Assembly: GCA_025056965.1 (NCBI GenBank)
Contig: JANWVF010000003.1
Span: 1 to 50,485, forward strand
DNA: 50,485 nucleotides
Reading direction: 5' to 3'
From: Thermoflexales bacterium
GTDB lineage: Bacteria; Chloroflexota; Anaerolineae; J036; Brachytrichaceae
How positions within the stretch are numbered: the first letter of the stretch is position 1; each line of letters begins with the position of its first letter. The notes under the pieces were generated by a model. It was not told the origin of the DNA. It ran no database searches and saw nothing but the letters and a program-made list of their open reading frames with translations. This document shows, in pieces, positions 34,116 through 43,766 of the stretch. Position numbers and translations under genes: made by a program.

Positions 34116-37100
34116 CTACGGGCGCCGCGCGATCGGGACAAAGGCTCGCTTAGGCGCATGCACCAACGTCGTCGCCGTGCGCGTCAGAACATTGTTGCCC
34201 CAGGTGACATAAACCGTGTTGGTGATCGTCTTGTTCCACAACGATGGGCCAGCAGGGACTTGCACGGTGAATTGGAACGTGCGCGTCAGACCGGGCGCCA
34301 GATTACCCGTCCACTGCACGCGGTTCAGCGCGCTGTTGTAGCTGAAGGTGTGGTTGGGCGGCGTGTTGTCCAGGCTGACGAACGTTGTGCTGGTTGGGAT
34401 CGTGTCGGTCAGCGTGACGTTCACCAGTTGCGAGCCGCTGTTCACCAACTGGATCGTGTAGGTCAACAACGAGCCGGCGACCAAGGTGGTCGGCGCCGAC
34501 TTGGTCGAGCTGCTCAGGTTCGGCGCGCCGATCACGGTGACCGCGCTGGCCTGGTGCATCGGTTCGACCTCCAGACCCTGCGGCCGAGAGTGAGTGACGG
34601 TGAGCATAGCCGTGTTGGTAATTGCACCGGCGGCCGTGTTGGTGATCTGCACGGTGACGGTGATCAGGCGAGACGGCAAATGCTGGGGTGTGCCGGGCAG
34701 GAAGATGTCATCCAGGCCGACATCTGCTCCATCATCCCCGAAATACTGGAAGCCGATGCGCAATGAGCCGGCCGGCAGGCTGGCCGGCAGCGTGTAGACG
34801 CTCTGCTGCCACGTCCAGCTGGCCGTCCACTCGTTATCAGGCTGGCCCAGCAACACATCATCGCCGCCGCCGACGGCATTCGCCACCAGCCACACGCGCA
34901 GATCACAGTTGTCGTTTGGCGTGCGGCACCAGTACACGCTGCCCTGCGACCACAGGCTGACGGTCATGCCGCCGCTCAAGCCAAGCAGTGGCGGGCTGAG
35001 CAGCCACTCGTCTTGGCTGTAATTCCACGGCACGTATGCGCCGTATGTGCCTGTGCGCTTATACAGCGTGCTGATCGCCCAGTTGTAAGAAGCGTTGGAG
35101 ATCTGTTCGCCCCAGCCGGCAGGAGGCACGGCGCCTCCCTCAAAGCCCTCAGCCTTGGGCGGGGCTGCGCCCAGCGGCAGGGTGCCGCTATACACGATCG
35201 CATTGGCCAGGCTGTCGTAGCTGGCGTTGGTTACCGTGACGAAGGTCGTCTGGGCCGGGATCGGATCGTATAGCTGGAAGGTGGCCGACACATCGTCGAA
35301 GTTATACAGCCGGATCACGTATTGCAACGAGTCGCCGGGGAAGGCGATGTTGTAGTTGACCGACTTTTCGACCCGGCCACTGTTGGCGAGGCGATAAATC
35401 GTCACCGGCATGGGCGCCAGGAGCGGTGCTTCGGGGGGGCCAGCGAACACAAAGCCGCTGTATACGCCGCCGGCTTGCATCGGGTAGCTGTAGTGAATGG
35501 TGAACGTAACCGGCGTGCCGGCCGGCACTGCACTGCTCGGCGCGCCGGCAAAGCTCAAGCCACCTACCTTGTTGCCCACTTGCATAGTTAGATTGAACGT
35601 GCCGGCCGGGCCGGAGTAGTTATCAACCCCGATCAGCCATGTGCCGTTCGGCGGCTCAATCAGGGTAATACTCTCGTTCGAGGTAGTGCCTGCAGAGGCA
35701 GCAACCATCTGCCAGGCCGAGCCGGTCCAACGGAACAGATACAGGTCAATATCGGCCAGGGCCGAGCTGGTGTTGAGCTGCAAGCTGTATGCGCCGGAGA
35801 GGTTGAACGTGTAGGTCCACTCGATCGTGCTGCTGCCGACGAAGCCCAGCGGTTCGTTCGTCCAGGTCTGCACCGTCGGGCTGACCAAGAATCCGGTGGT
35901 GGTCACGCCGTTCAAGGCGATGCCGGCGGTGAGCGTGGCCGTGCCGACCAGGCCGCTATTCACGTAAGTCGTGATGACGAACGAAGCCGGCGCAGAGCGC
36001 AGCGTGCCCAGCGTCTTGGTGAACACCACGTCATGCCGTGTGCCTTCGAACAACACGTTGTGCTGCAGCACGGCATGCAGACCGCCGCGGTCCGGCCGCC
36101 AATCGGGGAAGGGCGCCGCCACCCAGTCCTGGTTAGCGCCGCTGGAAGTGTCGAAGCGCCACACGCCGGCGCTGGTGTTGCGGTTGGGGCTCTTCGCCAC
36201 CGTGTCCAGCACGTACGGACCGTAGTAGGTTGGCTCCGGCACATCATATAAGCCACTGCCCAGGCTGGTGGGCGTCGAGCCAAGCACGATTGTGTCTATG
36301 TCGGTGTTCGGCGCCGGAGCCTGCCACTCGTCCTTCACCAGCATCTTGGTGCCGACAGGATACGCACAGGTGACATCGTGAACGCCGACATCATCCAGAT
36401 GGACATCGTTGCCGAACGCACTGATGCCGAGCAAGGCGATGCGCACGTCGGGCTGGCCGGCAAAGGCCGCCAGCGAGACGGTGTGCAGCTTCCAGCCGGT
36501 AGAACCGTCGTAGCGCGGCACCGGCGCGCCCACGTTCTGCCAGGTCAGGCCACCGTTTGTGGACACCTGCACCTGCACGCGGTCATTGTTGATGTATTCG
36601 GTGTCGTGATACATCTGGAAGCGCAGCTCTGGCGCGACGGCTGTGCTGAAGTCTAGGCCGCTGGTGCGATACAGGCGCGTGGCGTGGCCGGCGGACGCAT
36701 CGTAAGAGTTGAAATACACCAGATTAGGTGCGCTGACCGGCGGCTGGCCGGATGGGTTGACGGTTGCCGTTGACGTGCCCCACAGGCCGCTTGTGCCGGT
36801 GACCGTCTGCGTGGCCCAGCCAGGGGGCAGGGCCGGCGCGCTTACCGAGTCGAAGTTCTCGGTGAAGACAGTGTTGAGCGTACAGTTCTGCAGGTCGAAG
36901 AAGAAGAAGCGCCAGTCGCCGGACTCGGCGCGCCACGTCCAGTCAAACAAGCCGCGCACGGCGCCGTTGTTATACGGGCGATTGGCGTCGTAGACGTAGC
37001 TGGCCTGACCACCGAAGGTCAATCCATTGGTAAAGACGGCGGCCACGTTCAGCACCACGGGCACGACCGAAGTGTGCGTCCCGTCGTTGAAATACAGGCC

Positions 37101-40100
37101 GGCCTGGTACACACCGGGCGGCATGTTGGCAGGCACGTTGACCGTGGCCTGCACGGCCGCCGATCCGGTTGCCGGCACGGATACGCTGCCGCTGCTCAGG
37201 CTCAGCCAAGGCACGTCGCTCTTCTTGTAGAACTCGATGCGATAGCGCAGCGTAGTGGTCAGCGTCGCAGCGTTCGGCCGATATAGATGACGGATGCCGA
37301 TGAACATGCCGTCATCCATGCGTTGCACGGGATTCTGAATCCAAACTTCGTTGCGGTTGCCGCCGGGGCGGTGGTAGGCAAAACGCACGTACTCCCAGCG
37401 ATCTAGTTCGGTGCGCGGGTCGTTCCAGACCAGCTCTTCTGCACCGTCAATCTGGCTGACCACGCCGGAGTTAATGAAGTTGACCACGCCGTTGCCGTCG
37501 CGGTCTTCCCATAGGTTGCCGTCGTTGTTCTCGTCGCTCCAGTTGTAGACGTTCAGCACGAAGCGTTGATCCCACTGGTAATCGCCGTTCACGTCAAAGC
37601 GGGTGAAGGGGAAGGTCTGGCGGATGATCATCAAGTCGGTGTCGGGTGGGATCGGCACGTTGTACCACTGCGTCGCAAAGCCGATGTCGGCCGTGATCGG
37701 GATGAAGAAGTTGAAGGCTTTGTAGAAGTTATCGCGATTGGCCGCACCATAGGCGCTTTGTGCGGCGATCATCGCCGGCGTGACGGTGTAGGTCAATTCG
37801 CGCGAGCCGATCAGCAACAGCTCGGCATCAGTGATGCTCACGTTCACCGACGCCGTGGTCGGATTGGTAACGGTGATCGGCGTTGTGAATATATTGCCCG
37901 GATAAACGATGTGCGCAAAGCCGGGCCAATCCTGGCCGCGATAGTTGCCGGGCACCCACTCATCGGGCGTGACATAGAAGCCTTGTAGTCCGGATGCCAC
38001 GGCTGTGCCGCGATCGGCGTTGACCGAGCCAGAGCCCTGCGTCAAGGTGTCATACTCCAGATCGGTAGCCGAGGCTTTGAGCAAAGCCCGCGCCACGTCA
38101 TAGGTTGGCCATTCGCCGGTGCGATCGCGATAGGCCTGATAGATCAGCGCAAGCACGCCCCCGGCGACCGGCGCCGAGCGGCTAGTGCCGCCCCAGGAAG
38201 CCCACGAGAGATCGCCATTCGGCGCGCCCCAAGTCGAGATGCTGTAGTAGTTCAACTCTTCCGCCCCGGCCGCGAACGCGCCGCCGGCCACGACATCCAC
38301 GCCGTTCGTGCCGCGCGCGCCCGGGCCGCGATTGGAGAAGGGGATGACGTCGCCGTATACGATCTGATCGGTGCGCGTGATCGAGTCCCAGCCGGTCGAA
38401 CCGAACTCGGTGGACGCACCGACGCCGATGCCGCTGGCCGGTGTGGGCGGCGCTACCGTACCATAGGCCGACGCCCCGTTGCCCGTGCTGAACAGCATTT
38501 GCAGATTTGGGCCGTACAGACGTTGCACCTGCGAGGCCACCTGGCCTTCGTATTCCCAACCGTCGTTGTCCACGTCGCTCGTGCCGTAAGAGTTCGTGCT
38601 GATCTGGATAGCGTCGGAGTCGTCTGGATCGGTTTGGTCGAGGCCGTCGTAGCCGATCGCAGTGAAGATGTAGGCGTCGAGGATCGAAGAATCGAAGTTG
38701 TAATAGATATCCGAGACGTTGACTACCTTGGCGTCGGGAGCCATGCCGTAGACGGCTGCAGGTGGTTTGCCCGTGCCGGGCAAATCGCTGAAGGTAGGCA
38801 ACAGACCCTTCGATACGCCTTGCCCCACGATGTTCGAGGCGCACTGCGTGCCGTGGCTGTAGCTGCGGTCAAATGTGCTGCCGGAGAAGGCCACGAGGTC
38901 AGCATTGCCCGGCGTCAAGCCACCATACATCCAGTCCGAGACGGGAATCGGCGTCACGCCGTCGGCAATGAAGTAGAGCATGCCGCCGGAAATGTCGGCC
39001 AAACCGTCGTTGTTCAGGTCGCGGTAGGCCACCATGTCGTTATAGGTCGCCGGGTTGTTGACGTTGGCGCGGCGCAGCGGTTTCTCATCGCGAAAGTCGT
39101 AGTCGGCGTCCAAGTCCACATATACCGTGTCATATACGCCGGCCGTATTGGGGTCAGTGAGCAGGACAGCTACCTTCTCACCCCACAGGAAGTCGCGCAA
39201 GTCGTTGTCCGGGTGCGTGCCGACGCGCACCACGCCGCTCTTGCTCATCGTGCTGGAGATGACGTAGGTGTAGCCGCCGGGCGGCGCATACGGATTCAGC
39301 GTGCCGTAATCAATGAGGGGGGTGTATTGGAAGCAGCGGATGCCTGGCCCACAAGGCGCGGGCGTACGCGCCGTGCGGGTGTCCACATAGTGCGCGCCGG
39401 GGAAGCCATCGGCGATGTAGGTGGTGCCGAAGAAATCGTCGAAGGCGTATAACAGCATTGAGATCGGGCTGAACACATACGGCCAGCCGTTGTACTGAGG
39501 CGCCTCGGTGCTGGAGTAAATCTTGTGCGTGCCCAGCAGGTCGGGATGCGCGGGATCAATCCCATCGTCCAGCACAGCAACGGTCACGCCCTCGCCGGTG
39601 TAGCCGCGCGCCCAAGCAGCTTCAGCCTTGTGCGGACCGGCCGGCCTCACTTCAAACCAGTCTTGAGGCCGAAAGGAGGGGCGGCCATCGCCGAAGGCGC
39701 GTGCCTGCTGCCAGGGCAAGCTGCCGGCGCGCACCTTCTCGGCATCCGCACGCAATTTCGCCCATTGCTCTGGGCCTGGTTTAGGCGCAGCCGGCTGCGT
39801 GTCATCGGCAGGATACGGTTCCGGCTCGTTGGTGCGCTCCAGGACGATCGGCAGAATGGCCTGCACTGCCGGCAGCGTCGCTATCTTGAGCAGCATCCAG
39901 GGCTCGGCATAGCCGAAGAACATCTGGTTGCGCGCCTCGCCTTTGCCGAACGGTGGGCGGGCCAGCACTTTGCCATCTTTGAAGTAGGCGCTGAGGTCTG
40001 TTCCTTCGCGTGCGATGACTTGAATCAATACAGGCTCGCTGGCAGCAGCCGTTGCGCCCAAGCGGGCCGGCAGAGCCGGCGCTGCCGCGCGCGCTACGTC

Positions 40101-40331
40101 ACGCAGGCGAGGATGAATCTTCCGCAGCGCTACTTCGGGGTCTACGGAGGATTGAGCCGGTGGCACACCTTTCTCCGCACTGGCCAGAGGCGGCAGTTTA
40201 GTTGCGACGGCAGATTTATTAGCGTTGTCTGTTTGCGCCGAGGCAGGCGTCCCTGCGTTGCTGAAGATCAACGCACACACAGTTAAAGCAACGATTGGAT
40301 GAAGGGTTGCTTTCTGCTTTTTGATGTTCAT
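34116..40331 (-). CDS. Very large secreted subtilisin-family (S8) protease with adhesion-type beta domains
   Basis: About 2071 residues from the ATG at 40331; the frame extends to 40391 but the later ATG begins a clear signal peptide (basic start NIKKQK, hydrophobic core, cut near ASA-Q). Triad: D255 (VLDDGIDP), H493 (SHGT) and S717 (GTSRS). The Asp-His spacing of 238 residues is far larger than usual and holds an inserted beta region with Asp-rich DLDADYDFRDE and DLNNDGLAD turns, as in pyrolysin-like enzymes. Downstream are adhesin-like jelly-roll modules (FTENFD...PPGW, twice), a PPC-like domain and a DUF11-like repeat. The end is AFVPIARRP. It is probably a surface or released protease. 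Confidence 0.92.
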   Translation of the reverse strand: MNIKKQKATLHPIVALTVCALIFSNAGTPASAQTDNANKSAVATKLPPLASAEKGVPPAQSSVDPEVALRKIHPRLRDVARAAAPALPARLGATAAASEPVLIQVIAREGTDLSAYFKDGKVLARPPFGKGEARNQMFFGYAEPWMLLKIATLPAVQAILPIVLERTNEPEPYPADDTQPAAPKPGPEQWAKLRADAEKVRAGSLPWQQARAFGDGRPSFRPQDWFEVRPAGPHKAEAAWARGYTGEGVTVAVLDDGIDPAHPDLLGTHKIYSSTEAPQYNGWPYVFSPISMLLYAFDDFFGTTYIADGFPGAHYVDTRTARTPAPCGPGIRCFQYTPLIDYGTLNPYAPPGGYTYVISSTMSKSGVVRVGTHPDNDLRDFLWGEKVAVLLTDPNTAGVYDTVYVDLDADYDFRDEKPLRRANVNNPATYNDMVAYRDLNNDGLADISGGMLYFIADGVTPIPVSDWMYGGLTPGNADLVAFSGSTFDRSYSHGTQCASNIVGQGVSKGLLPTFSDLPGTGKPPAAVYGMAPDAKVVNVSDIYYNFDSSILDAYIFTAIGYDGLDQTDPDDSDAIQISTNSYGTSDVDNDGWEYEGQVASQVQRLYGPNLQMLFSTGNGASAYGTVAPPTPASGIGVGASTEFGSTGWDSITRTDQIVYGDVIPFSNRGPGARGTNGVDVVAGGAFAAGAEELNYYSISTWGAPNGDLSWASWGGTSRSAPVAGGVLALIYQAYRDRTGEWPTYDVARALLKASATDLEYDTLTQGSGSVNADRGTAVASGLQGFYVTPDEWVPGNYRGQDWPGFAHIVYPGNIFTTPITVTNPTTASVNVSITDAELLLIGSRELTYTVTPAMIAAQSAYGAANRDNFYKAFNFFIPITADIGFATQWYNVPIPPDTDLMIIRQTFPFTRFDVNGDYQWDQRFVLNVYNWSDENNDGNLWEDRDGNGVVNFINSGVVSQIDGAEELVWNDPRTELDRWEYVRFAYHRPGGNRNEVWIQNPVQRMDDGMFIGIRHLYRPNAATLTTTLRYRIEFYKKSDVPWLSLSSGSVSVPATGSAAVQATVNVPANMPPGVYQAGLYFNDGTHTSVVPVVLNVAAVFTNGLTFGGQASYVYDANRPYNNGAVRGLFDWTWRAESGDWRFFFFDLQNCTLNTVFTENFDSVSAPALPPGWATQTVTGTSGLWGTSTATVNPSGQPPVSAPNLVYFNSYDASAGHATRLYRTSGLDFSTAVAPELRFQMYHDTEYINNDRVQVQVSTNGGLTWQNVGAPVPRYDGSTGWKLHTVSLAAFAGQPDVRIALLGISAFGNDVHLDDVGVHDVTCAYPVGTKMLVKDEWQAPAPNTDIDTIVLGSTPTSLGSGLYDVPEPTYYGPYVLDTVAKSPNRNTSAGVWRFDTSSGANQDWVAAPFPDWRPDRGGLHAVLQHNVLFEGTRHDVVFTKTLGTLRSAPASFVITTYVNSGLVGTATLTAGIALNGVTTTGFLVSPTVQTWTNEPLGFVGSSTIEWTYTFNLSGAYSLQLNTSSALADIDLYLFRWTGSAWQMVAASAGTTSNESITLIEPPNGTWLIGVDNYSGPAGTFNLTMQVGNKVGGLSFAGAPSSAVPAGTPVTFTIHYSYPMQAGGVYSGFVFAGPPEAPLLAPMPVTIYRLANSGRVEKSVNYNIAFPGDSLQYVIRLYNFDDVSATFQLYDPIPAQTTFVTVTNASYDSLANAIVYSGTLPLGAAPPKAEGFEGGAVPPAGWGEQISNASYNWAISTLYKRTGTYGAYVPWNYSQDEWLLSPPLLGLSGGMTVSLWSQGSVYWCRTPNDNCDLRVWLVANAVGGGDDVLLGQPDNEWTASWTWQQSVYTLPASLPAGSLRIGFQYFGDDGADVGLDDIFLPGTPQHLPSRLITVTVQITNTAAGAITNTAMLTVTHSRPQGLEVEPMHQASAVTVIGAPNLSSSTKSAPTTLVAGSLLTYTIQLVNSGSQLVNVTLTDTIPTSTTFVSLDNTPPNHTFSYNSALNRVQWTGNLAPGLTRTFQFTVQVPAGPSLWNKTITNTVYVTWGNNVLTRTATTLVHAPKRAFVPIARRP

Positions 40332-40547
40332 AATAGATGGATCATTACCCCCATAATGACCTCTGAGGCACTGCGCAGTAGCGCGCAGCACACCGGAAAT
40401 CTACTACCTGACCACAAGATTGCAAGCGAGCCGAAACCCAACGGACTCCGGACTTCCCGCAGAAAAGATGAGCCCGCTCACCGCCCATGCTACTGCGCCT
40501 TTCAGCTGCGCCCGCCTGAGCGCGTCTACCTGTAACAATCCAAGAAG

Positions 40548-41324: not shown

Positions 41325-43766
41325 GTGCGCGAGCGACTGATCTCGCCGTTGGCGCTGCTCGCCTTAGCGCTGCTGCCGGGCTGGATCGGCGCTACCTCGC
41401 TCACGTTGCAGCGTGGCGATCCTGCACCGCTGCTCGCCCTGAGCGTGCTGAGCGCGCTCGCCGGGATCGCCCATCTATGGCTCGATCGCGTCGCGCCGGA
41501 GCGCGATCCTTTCATCCTGCCGGCGGCCGTGATGCTGACCGGCCTCGGCCTGCTGGCTATCGCGCGCACGGCGCCCAACTTTCTCCAGCGCCAGGCCATC
41601 GCGCTGGTCATCGCGTTCGCGGTTGCGCTCGCCATCGCCGGCCGACGCGACCGGCTGCGCTGGTTGCGCCGCTTCAAATACACCTGGCTAATCGCTGCGC
41701 TGGCGCTGCTGCTCATATCGCTGGCGTTCGGCGTCAATCCATCCGGCGTCGGAGCGCGCCTGTGGTTGAACATCGGCAGCTTCTTCATCCAGCCCTCAGA
41801 GCTGCTGCGGCTGCTGATCATTGCCTTTCTCGCCGCCTACTTCGCCGAACGCACGGCGGAGGAAGCGCTGCCGTGGAGATACGGCGCAGCACCTCGCGCT
41901 GCCGCCTTAGACCCACGATCACTCGCCCCCACCTTGGTGATGAGCGTGATCGCGCTGCTCATGCTCGTCATCCAGCAAGACCTGGGCGCTGCCTCGCTGT
42001 TGTTGGCGACGTTTGCCTTCATGCTCTATCTGGCTACCGGTGATGCGCGGTTGCCGTTCGGGTTAGCCGGCGCATTGACGGTCGCTGCAATTGCCGGTTA
42101 CTTCGTCTCGGCACGCGTGGCGCAAAGGCTGAACATCTGGTTGAACCCATGGGCCGACCCGCAAGGCAGCGCGTTCCAGATCGTCCAATCGTTGATTGCC
42201 TTGGCCAGCGGCGGCATCCTAGGTCAAGGCATCAACCAGGGTCGGCCGGGCTATGTGCCGGCCGTGCATACGGACTTCCCGTTCGTGATGATCGGCGAGG
42301 AACTGGGGCTGGCCGGCGCGCTGGCCGTGTTGGCCGTCTTCGCCGTGCTCATCCTGCGCGGTTGGCGCATCGGCTTGAGCAGCGGCGACTCCTACGGGCT
42401 GTTGCTGGCCGGTGGTGTCGCGGCAGGCCTGACGATTCAGGTATTCGTCATCGTCGGCGGCAACATCGGGCTATTGCCGCTCACCGGCGTCACTCTGCCC
42501 TTCATCAGCTACGGCGGCACTTCGCTGGTCGTGAGTTACTTCACCATCGGCCTGCTCATCCGCCTGTCCGCCGATGCAGCCGCCACAAGGCGCACGCCGG
42601 ATGCGCATGCCTGGCTGCCCGCACGGCGCGCGATGCGCCTCAGCGCCGTCATGCTGGGGACGCTGGCGTTGGGGACGGGCTACTGGAGCTTCGTGCGCGG
42701 CGCCGAGCTGGTCGCGCGCGCCGATAACCCGCGCCTCGTAGAAGCGGAGCTGGCCACCTTCCGAGGAGCGATCTTTGCGCGGGACGGGGAACTGCTGGCT
42801 TACTCGTCCTGCGCCGGCGCGCCGCAGCCGCTGATGCCCTGTGAACAGCCCTGGGCGACACGGAACGTCGCGGTAGGTGTCTCGTCCCGTTCAACGGTGA
42901 TGCGCTATGAGCGGCGCTATGTGCTGCCGGAAGCCGCGCCGGTCGTCGGCTATTACAGCCAGCGTTACGGCGTAGGCGGGCTAGAAGCGTTCGGCGACGC
43001 GACGCTGCGCGGCAGCCGGACATGGCTGGACGACTTCCTGCACCGCCCGCGCATCGGCCGCGCGATCACTTCCACGCTCGACGCGGACTGGCAGCGCCGC
43101 GCCGCCGCTGCGTTGCGCGCCGGCCCGGCGCTGACCGACGCGCGCGGCGCGGCCATCGTCATGAACTGGCGCACCGGCGAGGTGCTGGCGCTGGCCAGCG
43201 CGCCTACGTTTGATCCCCACCGGCTGGAGCAGGACTGGGATCACCTGCGCGCCGACCCGGCCGCCCCGCTGGTCAACCGCGCCACCCAGGGTTTGTATCA
43301 GCCGGGCATGCTGCTGCAATGGCTCATCGCGGCGCGCCGGCCGTCCCATTCTTCCCAGTCGTTGATCTCCACGCTCGCTTCCCTCAAATTGCACGAGCCG
43401 GTGCCGTTCGAGCTGCCGAACGAAGCCACGCCGCTGCCGATCACGGCAACCTACAGCGAGACCATCGGCCAGGGACAGTTGCGCGTCACGCCGCTGCGCG
43501 TCGCGACTACCCTTGCCGGCCTGGTCGCAGGGCAGCCGGTGACGCCGACGTTGATCGCCAATCCACCCGTCAGGCAGGACGCACCGCCTGTCGCCGAGCG
43601 CGCCTCGATTCGCCCGTTTAGCGGCTTCGCGCAGATAGCCGATAATCGGTTTGTGGGGTGGCACGCGCGCGTCGTCGGCGACCTGGTGATCGTCCTGGCA
43701 CTCGAAACGCCGGCGCGCGAGCATCCCGCACTGGGGAGAGCCATCGCAGCCTTAGAGGGAGAATAG
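41325..43766 (+). CDS. SEDS (FtsW/RodA-like) glycosyltransferase fused to a degenerate class B PBP domain
   Basis: 813 residues from a GTG. Residues 1-440 are a polytopic SEDS peptidoglycan polymerase with E159 in QPSELLR and the catalytic D317 in TDFPFVMIGEE, plus the conserved SYGGTS near 390. After a further hydrophobic segment (about 440-460), residues 465-813 resemble the PBP pedestal and transpeptidase fold: the FRGAIFARDG start, YVLPEAAPVVGYYS and IGQGQLRVTPLR are clear. The active-site SxxK, normally in YxPGSTFK, reads M662-L-L-Q665, and no SxN or KTG motif is seen. The PBP part therefore looks inactive and may only regulate the polymerase. It heads a plus-strand gene group. Confidence 0.92.
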   Translation: MRERLISPLALLALALLPGWIGATSLTLQRGDPAPLLALSVLSALAGIAHLWLDRVAPERDPFILPAAVMLTGLGLLAIARTAPNFLQRQAIALVIAFAVALAIAGRRDRLRWLRRFKYTWLIAALALLLISLAFGVNPSGVGARLWLNIGSFFIQPSELLRLLIIAFLAAYFAERTAEEALPWRYGAAPRAAALDPRSLAPTLVMSVIALLMLVIQQDLGAASLLLATFAFMLYLATGDARLPFGLAGALTVAAIAGYFVSARVAQRLNIWLNPWADPQGSAFQIVQSLIALASGGILGQGINQGRPGYVPAVHTDFPFVMIGEELGLAGALAVLAVFAVLILRGWRIGLSSGDSYGLLLAGGVAAGLTIQVFVIVGGNIGLLPLTGVTLPFISYGGTSLVVSYFTIGLLIRLSADAAATRRTPDAHAWLPARRAMRLSAVMLGTLALGTGYWSFVRGAELVARADNPRLVEAELATFRGAIFARDGELLAYSSCAGAPQPLMPCEQPWATRNVAVGVSSRSTVMRYERRYVLPEAAPVVGYYSQRYGVGGLEAFGDATLRGSRTWLDDFLHRPRIGRAITSTLDADWQRRAAAALRAGPALTDARGAAIVMNWRTGEVLALASAPTFDPHRLEQDWDHLRADPAAPLVNRATQGLYQPGMLLQWLIAARRPSHSSQSLISTLASLKLHEPVPFELPNEATPLPITATYSETIGQGQLRVTPLRVATTLAGLVAGQPVTPTLIANPPVRQDAPPVAERASIRPFSGFAQIADNRFVGWHARVVGDLVIVLALETPAREHPALGRAIAALEGE

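Follow-up and report, generated by a model that had tools for sequence, protein, structure and literature searches.

A SEDS polymerase and a class B PBP in one reading frame

The window analyzed here, the whole stretch of 50,485 nucleotides from the Thermoflexales bacterium assembly GCA_025056965.1 (contig JANWVF010000003.1, positions 1 to 50,485), carries at 41325-43766 on the plus strand a single open reading frame of 813 amino acids with a predicted GTG start and a stop codon at 43764-43766. It encodes a SEDS polymerase in its N-terminal part and a PbpA-type class B penicillin-binding protein (PBP) in its C-terminal part, and the uninterrupted frame bears out the covalent SEDS-PBP linkage described in the initial annotation of this DNA. 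A minus-strand gene near the fusion gene, at 34116-40391, encodes a subtilase-family protein of 2091 aa that has a DUF11 domain.

The SEDS (FtsW/RodA) domain spans approximately residues 60-420 (41502-42584, plus strand, as are all features of the fusion) and matches the Pfam family FTSW_RODA_SPOVE (PF01098) at residues 85-417 with an E-value of 8e-77 and 259 bits against a cut-off of 26.4, and Foldseek relates it to the structures 8p1u, 8tj3 and 6pl5. The residues E159 (41799-41801) and D317 (42273-42275), the latter being the equivalent of the catalytic aspartate D262 of E. coli RodA, are both present as annotated, and so are D219 and R268. A D262A substitution abolishes the activity of RodA (PMC10449877). 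With a PF01098 match above the gathering score and conserved catalytic residues, this part of the protein is, judged by its sequence, a member of the SEDS glycosyltransferase family.

The PBP part begins with a predicted transmembrane helix (approximately residues 427-457; 42603-42695), followed by a juxtamembrane segment (residues 459-495; 42699-42809) that carries the motif RADNPRLVEAE...RG, in which D467, N468, P469 and R470 are invariant. The pedestal (approximately residues 523-600; 42891-43124) matches the PbpA dimerization domain PBP_dimer_2 (PF21922) at residues 523-566 with an E-value of 1.3e-8. It precedes a transpeptidase-fold remnant (residues 605-811; 43137-43757) that lacks the SxN subdomain. 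The Transpeptidase family (PF00905) is matched with an E-value of 3.4e-10, the best stretch (residues 608-661) covering only positions 1-43 of the 299 in the profile. The transmembrane helix, the pedestal and the transpeptidase fold make this part a class B PBP, one from which the active-site motifs of such proteins are missing.

Loss of the catalytic motifs

The former SxxK position reads M662-L-L-Q665 (43308-43319) and the former KTG position reads F765-S-G-F768 (43617-43628). The initial annotation had reported a lost active-site serine and no visible KTG, and both statements hold: the residues after G661 are MLLQ, and a motif scan of the PBP half finds no S..K, S.N or K[TS]G anywhere after residue 430, which also rules out an intact SxxK elsewhere in the domain. 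In profile alignments the YPPGSTFK of M. tuberculosis PbpA aligns with the YQPGxLLxW of the family, and the KTGT of PbpA falls opposite a degenerate segment. Compared with live relatives, meaning those in which the active-site serine and lysine are intact, about 100 amino acids from the SxxK to the KTG region, SxN included, are deleted. In longer PBPs that have lost the serine (termed dead below), sequences such as AxLE/Q, ACP and HLGT stand where SxxK, SxN and KTG would be. The pseudo-motif QPGxLLxW is conserved, and in close relatives the former serine position is occupied by M, L, E, P, A, R or S and the former lysine position by Q, R, A, S or E.

The predicted fold is retained in both halves. 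The AlphaFold model of the whole protein (pLDDT 80.6, a value that comes with no inter-domain confidence figure) has the FtsW/RodA fold, and that of the PBP half (pLDDT 83.4, pTM 0.82) has the PbpA fold, superimposing on M. tuberculosis PbpA with a VIA Z of 28.4 over 294 aligned residues at 3.0 Å.

The fusion is maintained in the genus

Since the same open, stop-free fusion is present, at 66-80% identity, in every one of the nine genomes sampled from the genus (that of the window and eight others), an assembly or frameshift error is ruled out as its source; one of these nine genomes is a single contig. The nearest named match belongs to a Ca. Roseilinea sp. (78% identity), the organism being a member of the Ca. 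Roseilinea group within Anaerolineae. Another 10 genomes of the family have the fusion, cut by contig ends in two of them. Within the genus, dN/dS lies mostly between 0.05 and 0.37 across the SEDS domain, linker, pedestal and transpeptidase core, with a few higher values from small samples.

State of the PBP partner across Chloroflexota

With the PBP half as query, a search across 84,980 species genomes returned 332 relatives, of which 80 were fetched; these 80 are labelled Chloroflexota or a taxon within it, apart from one labelled only 'uncultured bacterium'. Among 84 distinct aligned PBPs, SxxK and KTG are both kept only in L081 and L110. Because a PBP-half query could favor dead copies, a second survey used a SEDS-weighted profile on 200 genomes of the class and 201 of the phylum, with 100 loci fetched and the partner read wherever one was found. 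After duplicate removal the data comprised 141 SEDS-PBP pairs and 142 SEDS sequences. Small genomes such as G214, G224 and G232 (family f54) have no match to the SEDS-PBP profile and are presumably wall-less, making them a useful negative control.

Of the 141 pairs, 116 have lost the PBP serine. All 71 fused pairs are dead, as are 45 split pairs, and the remaining 25 are split pairs with serine and lysine intact, 24 of which also have KTG. The survey of fused genes with intact or lost SxxK that had been proposed for the phylum finds the SxxK lost in every fusion. Fusion is rejected as the general cause of motif loss, because unfused pairs are dead as well. The state follows taxonomy: the partner is dead in 115 of the 121 pairs in or grouping with Anaerolineae, the membership of some of which is given only by the label 'Chloroflexi bacterium' and their tree position. 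In the other classes of the phylum it is dead in one of 20 and live in 19, counts that leave out the SEDS sequences of about a dozen loci with no PBP in the fetched stretch. On the polymerase side, none of the 142 SEDS sequences deviates at D317, E159, D219 or R268.

Order of loss and fusion

On a tree built from the SEDS part only, the dead or live state requires a minimum of three changes and the fusion at least nine. Placement of all fused proteins in one clade is rejected (AU p 1e-7), and with it a single origin of the fusion. Apart from two separate cases, the dead sequences form one side of a branch with modest support (88). The first of these cases (L157, in genome G218 from another class of the phylum) is a fused SEDS-PBP with PLAQ at the SxxK position and no KTG, apparently an independent loss and fusion outside Anaerolineae. 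The second (L031) is a dead PBP with a live sister, L081, from which it scarcely differs outside the SxxK-SxN stretch. Comparison of L031:363-1487 (the same locus as L071) with L081:5983-7401 shows this stretch converted to a low-complexity GELEELG-type sequence, with KTGT and the reading frame kept, apparently reflecting a second and recent loss or a misassembly.

Because the SEDS-only tree groups the dead sequences while the fusion has several origins, a single loss in the ancestor of most of the class probably preceded the fusions, which then arose repeatedly. The observation that every fused pair is dead amounts to one or two informative pairs on the tree, with no independent replication, and a rule that fusion implies a dead partner lies beyond a statistical test because the losses are so few.

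Conserved and released parts of the PBP

The juxtamembrane segment and the pedestal are as conserved in dead PBPs as in live ones, with mean pairwise identities (dead/live) of 0.47/0.42 and 0.43/0.39, respectively, in a comparison that sets one clade (dead) against a paraphyletic group (live). The SxxK helix (0.27/0.67) and the last strand (0.32/0.59) are conserved in live PBPs only. The segments through which the PBP contacts and activates the SEDS protein in studied complexes have been retained, and the catalytic ones let go.

These retained parts have documented functions elsewhere. PBP partners stimulate SEDS polymerases through a contact between the pedestal and extracellular loop 4 (PMC8078798, PMC6207328), and mutations affecting activation cluster where the PBP pedestal meets this SEDS loop (PMC8078798). 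In E. coli the transmembrane helix of PBP2 suffices to stimulate RodA (PMC10449877). In the T. thermophilus RodA-PBP2 complex, a periplasmic interface II represses polymerization and its opening activates it (PMC10257715).

Relation to known SEDS-PBP systems

By descent the fusion is a RodA-PbpA pair: the split relatives are adjacent genes with SEDS first and PBP second, and M. tuberculosis PbpA (3un7, 3upn, 3upp) is the nearest solved relative by both profile (E 3e-41) and fold (Z 28.4). The M. tuberculosis protein differs in that it is a catalytically active transpeptidase, can be acylated and has SxxK, SxN and KTG, all three of which are absent from the fusion, and in that its gene is separate from rodA. 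The actinobacterial cluster has the order fhaA-fhaB-rodA-pbpA, and some split relatives resemble it in that their SEDS gene has FHA genes on its upstream side, namely FhaA_N plus a small FHA protein (L072:2490-3735 and L075:2501-3752) or a small FHA protein (L081:581-1024); within the window, FHA genes are absent beside the fusion gene. In several relatives the SEDS gene is preceded by a phosphorylase-superfamily gene, the cluster being read as a remnant of the actinobacterial type.

The RodA-PBP2 (8tj3, 6pl5) and FtsW-FtsI (8p1u, 8bh1) complexes share the SEDS fold, the catalytic aspartate and the architecture of pedestal and transmembrane helix, but their PBP partners, unlike that of the fusion, are separate active enzymes. 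SEDS-PBP fusions have been noted before, in that PMC10449877 cites one from the Rhodococcus RHA1 genome; like the engineered E. coli RodA-PBP2 fusion, it is a single open reading frame with SEDS first and PBP second. The engineered protein binds Bocillin, indicating an intact transpeptidase (PMC10449877), whereas all 71 surveyed fusions are dead. Dead partners are likewise known from the laboratory. In B. subtilis, division is supported by a catalytically dead PBP2B, with crosslinking probably performed by PBP3 (PMC8078798), and in S. aureus the regulatory functions of PBP1 survive the loss of its activity, although the activity is essential there (PMC9426605). The B. subtilis case is a parallel in that a SEDS partner works without its own catalysis while another class B PBP probably makes the crosslinks, but dead PBP2B is a laboratory mutant, whereas in Chloroflexota the dead partner occurs naturally and has become fixed throughout a clade. 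The open-licence PMC literature searched yielded no earlier report of a natural, clade-wide dead class B PBP partner that has been repeatedly fused.

Other wall enzymes and candidates for crosslinking

The genome encodes an intact FtsI, three class A PBPs, a MecA-type class B PBP and six YkuD proteins of the LD-transpeptidase fold, as well as FtsW. It also has a PBP2 with an intact SxxK, whose gene is cut by the end of contig C62 (L005). In relatives from the genus RodA adjoins PBP2, and the canonical RodA of this genome probably sits in an assembly gap beside it, because C62 ends inside the PBP2 gene. The search for active class B PBPs suggested at the outset yields FtsI, the MecA-type protein and the truncated PBP2 as candidates.

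The MecA_N-type class B PBP lies at C50:14124-16106 (L002) and has SxxK and KSG intact, with a MecA_N score near threshold (E 1.3e-4). MecA_N is found in 78 of 84 genomes of the class that have this SEDS protein and in 43 of 113 that lack it, a contrast confounded by ancestry, and two genomes with live pairs (G120 and G104) have MecA_N too. This association with the dead SEDS-PBP pair is a lead that falls short of proof.

A pseudoenzyme partner as a probable polymerase switch

The observations to be explained are that the SEDS residues are intact and all three PBP motifs lost, that this state is class-wide, that fusion recurred, and that the SEDS-contacting parts remain under constraint. They are probably best accounted for by a SEDS-bPBP pair of the RodA-PbpA type whose PBP is a pseudo-transpeptidase that activates or positions the polymerase, with crosslinks made in trans, most plausibly by the MecA-type PBP. 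The SEDS part would polymerize lipid II into glycan, the PBP part would serve as its activator and positioner, and the strands would be crosslinked in trans by the MecA-type class B PBP (C50:15096) or otherwise by the class A PBPs. The retained transmembrane helix, juxtamembrane segment and pedestal would be the parts that bind and activate the polymerase, as they do in studied SEDS-bPBP complexes. With catalytic coupling gone, the two chains would be free to fuse and the transpeptidase lobe free to shrink, both being possible because no such coupling is left to preserve. The initial annotation had offered two proposals, a PBP part limited to activating or positioning the polymerase or, alternatively, crosslinking by a different enzyme; comparison of the sequences supports both, because the SEDS residues are invariant, the PBP site is lost class-wide, the contact segments are conserved and other PBPs are intact.

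The pair might instead make a deliberately uncrosslinked glycan, such as a primer, a repair strand or an envelope layer, which would call for no transpeptidase, either in cis or in trans. A partner that is dead in many families of the class fits this idea, and with FtsW and FtsI in the genome and RodA-PBP2 in the genus, bulk wall synthesis may not need the pair. The ancestry of the pair, however, includes live PbpA partners, MecA-type bPBPs occur alongside it, and export or sheath genes were not seen beside the fusion gene within the window, leaving this alternative unlikely.

Somewhat more doubtful is a PBP part acting as an inhibitory or sensor lobe that keeps the polymerase shut and releases it on binding a ligand, for example nascent peptidoglycan or a regulator. 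Repression through interface II in T. thermophilus RodA-PBP2 (PMC10257715) provides a precedent, and the segment NRATQGLYQPG is highly conserved in dead PBPs (identity 0.67). Live PBPs conserve this segment too (0.58), so it may be structural, and inhibition and activation are not exclusive. That the PBP part is merely decaying, the SEDS protein needing just the transmembrane helix, is very improbable: the lobe is truncated in the family of the fusion and the helix alone stimulates E. coli RodA (PMC10449877), but purifying selection acts within the genus on the pedestal and the transpeptidase remnant, the frames are open across species, QPGxLLxW is conserved and the fold is retained. An enzyme with a non-canonical nucleophile is scarcely credible and was rejected, as nothing was found in its favor, the former serine and lysine positions vary freely in close relatives, and SxN and KTG are lost.

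The class-wide loss suggests that evolution retained the partner for switching the SEDS polymerase and not for any catalysis of its own. A broader and more tentative proposal, somewhat short of an even chance, is that the whole class has fixed a pseudoenzyme PBP as the regulatory subunit of a third SEDS polymerase, with a MecA/PBP3-type enzyme crosslinking in trans and with repeated fusion of the two chains. Dozens of natural partners in which catalysis is lost and the contact parts are kept amount to an evolutionary experiment on the PBP residues needed for activation only, and they bear on the relative weight of the enzyme and activator roles of the transpeptidase partner of a SEDS protein. 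A SEDS-bPBP complex whose partner should not bind beta-lactams would also be a clean system for the study of allosteric activation. For these Chloroflexota, the pair may represent a natural division of labor in which a SEDS synthase polymerizes and a separate PBP crosslinks, and if this is true, polymerization and crosslinking would be separated at the level of the synthase.
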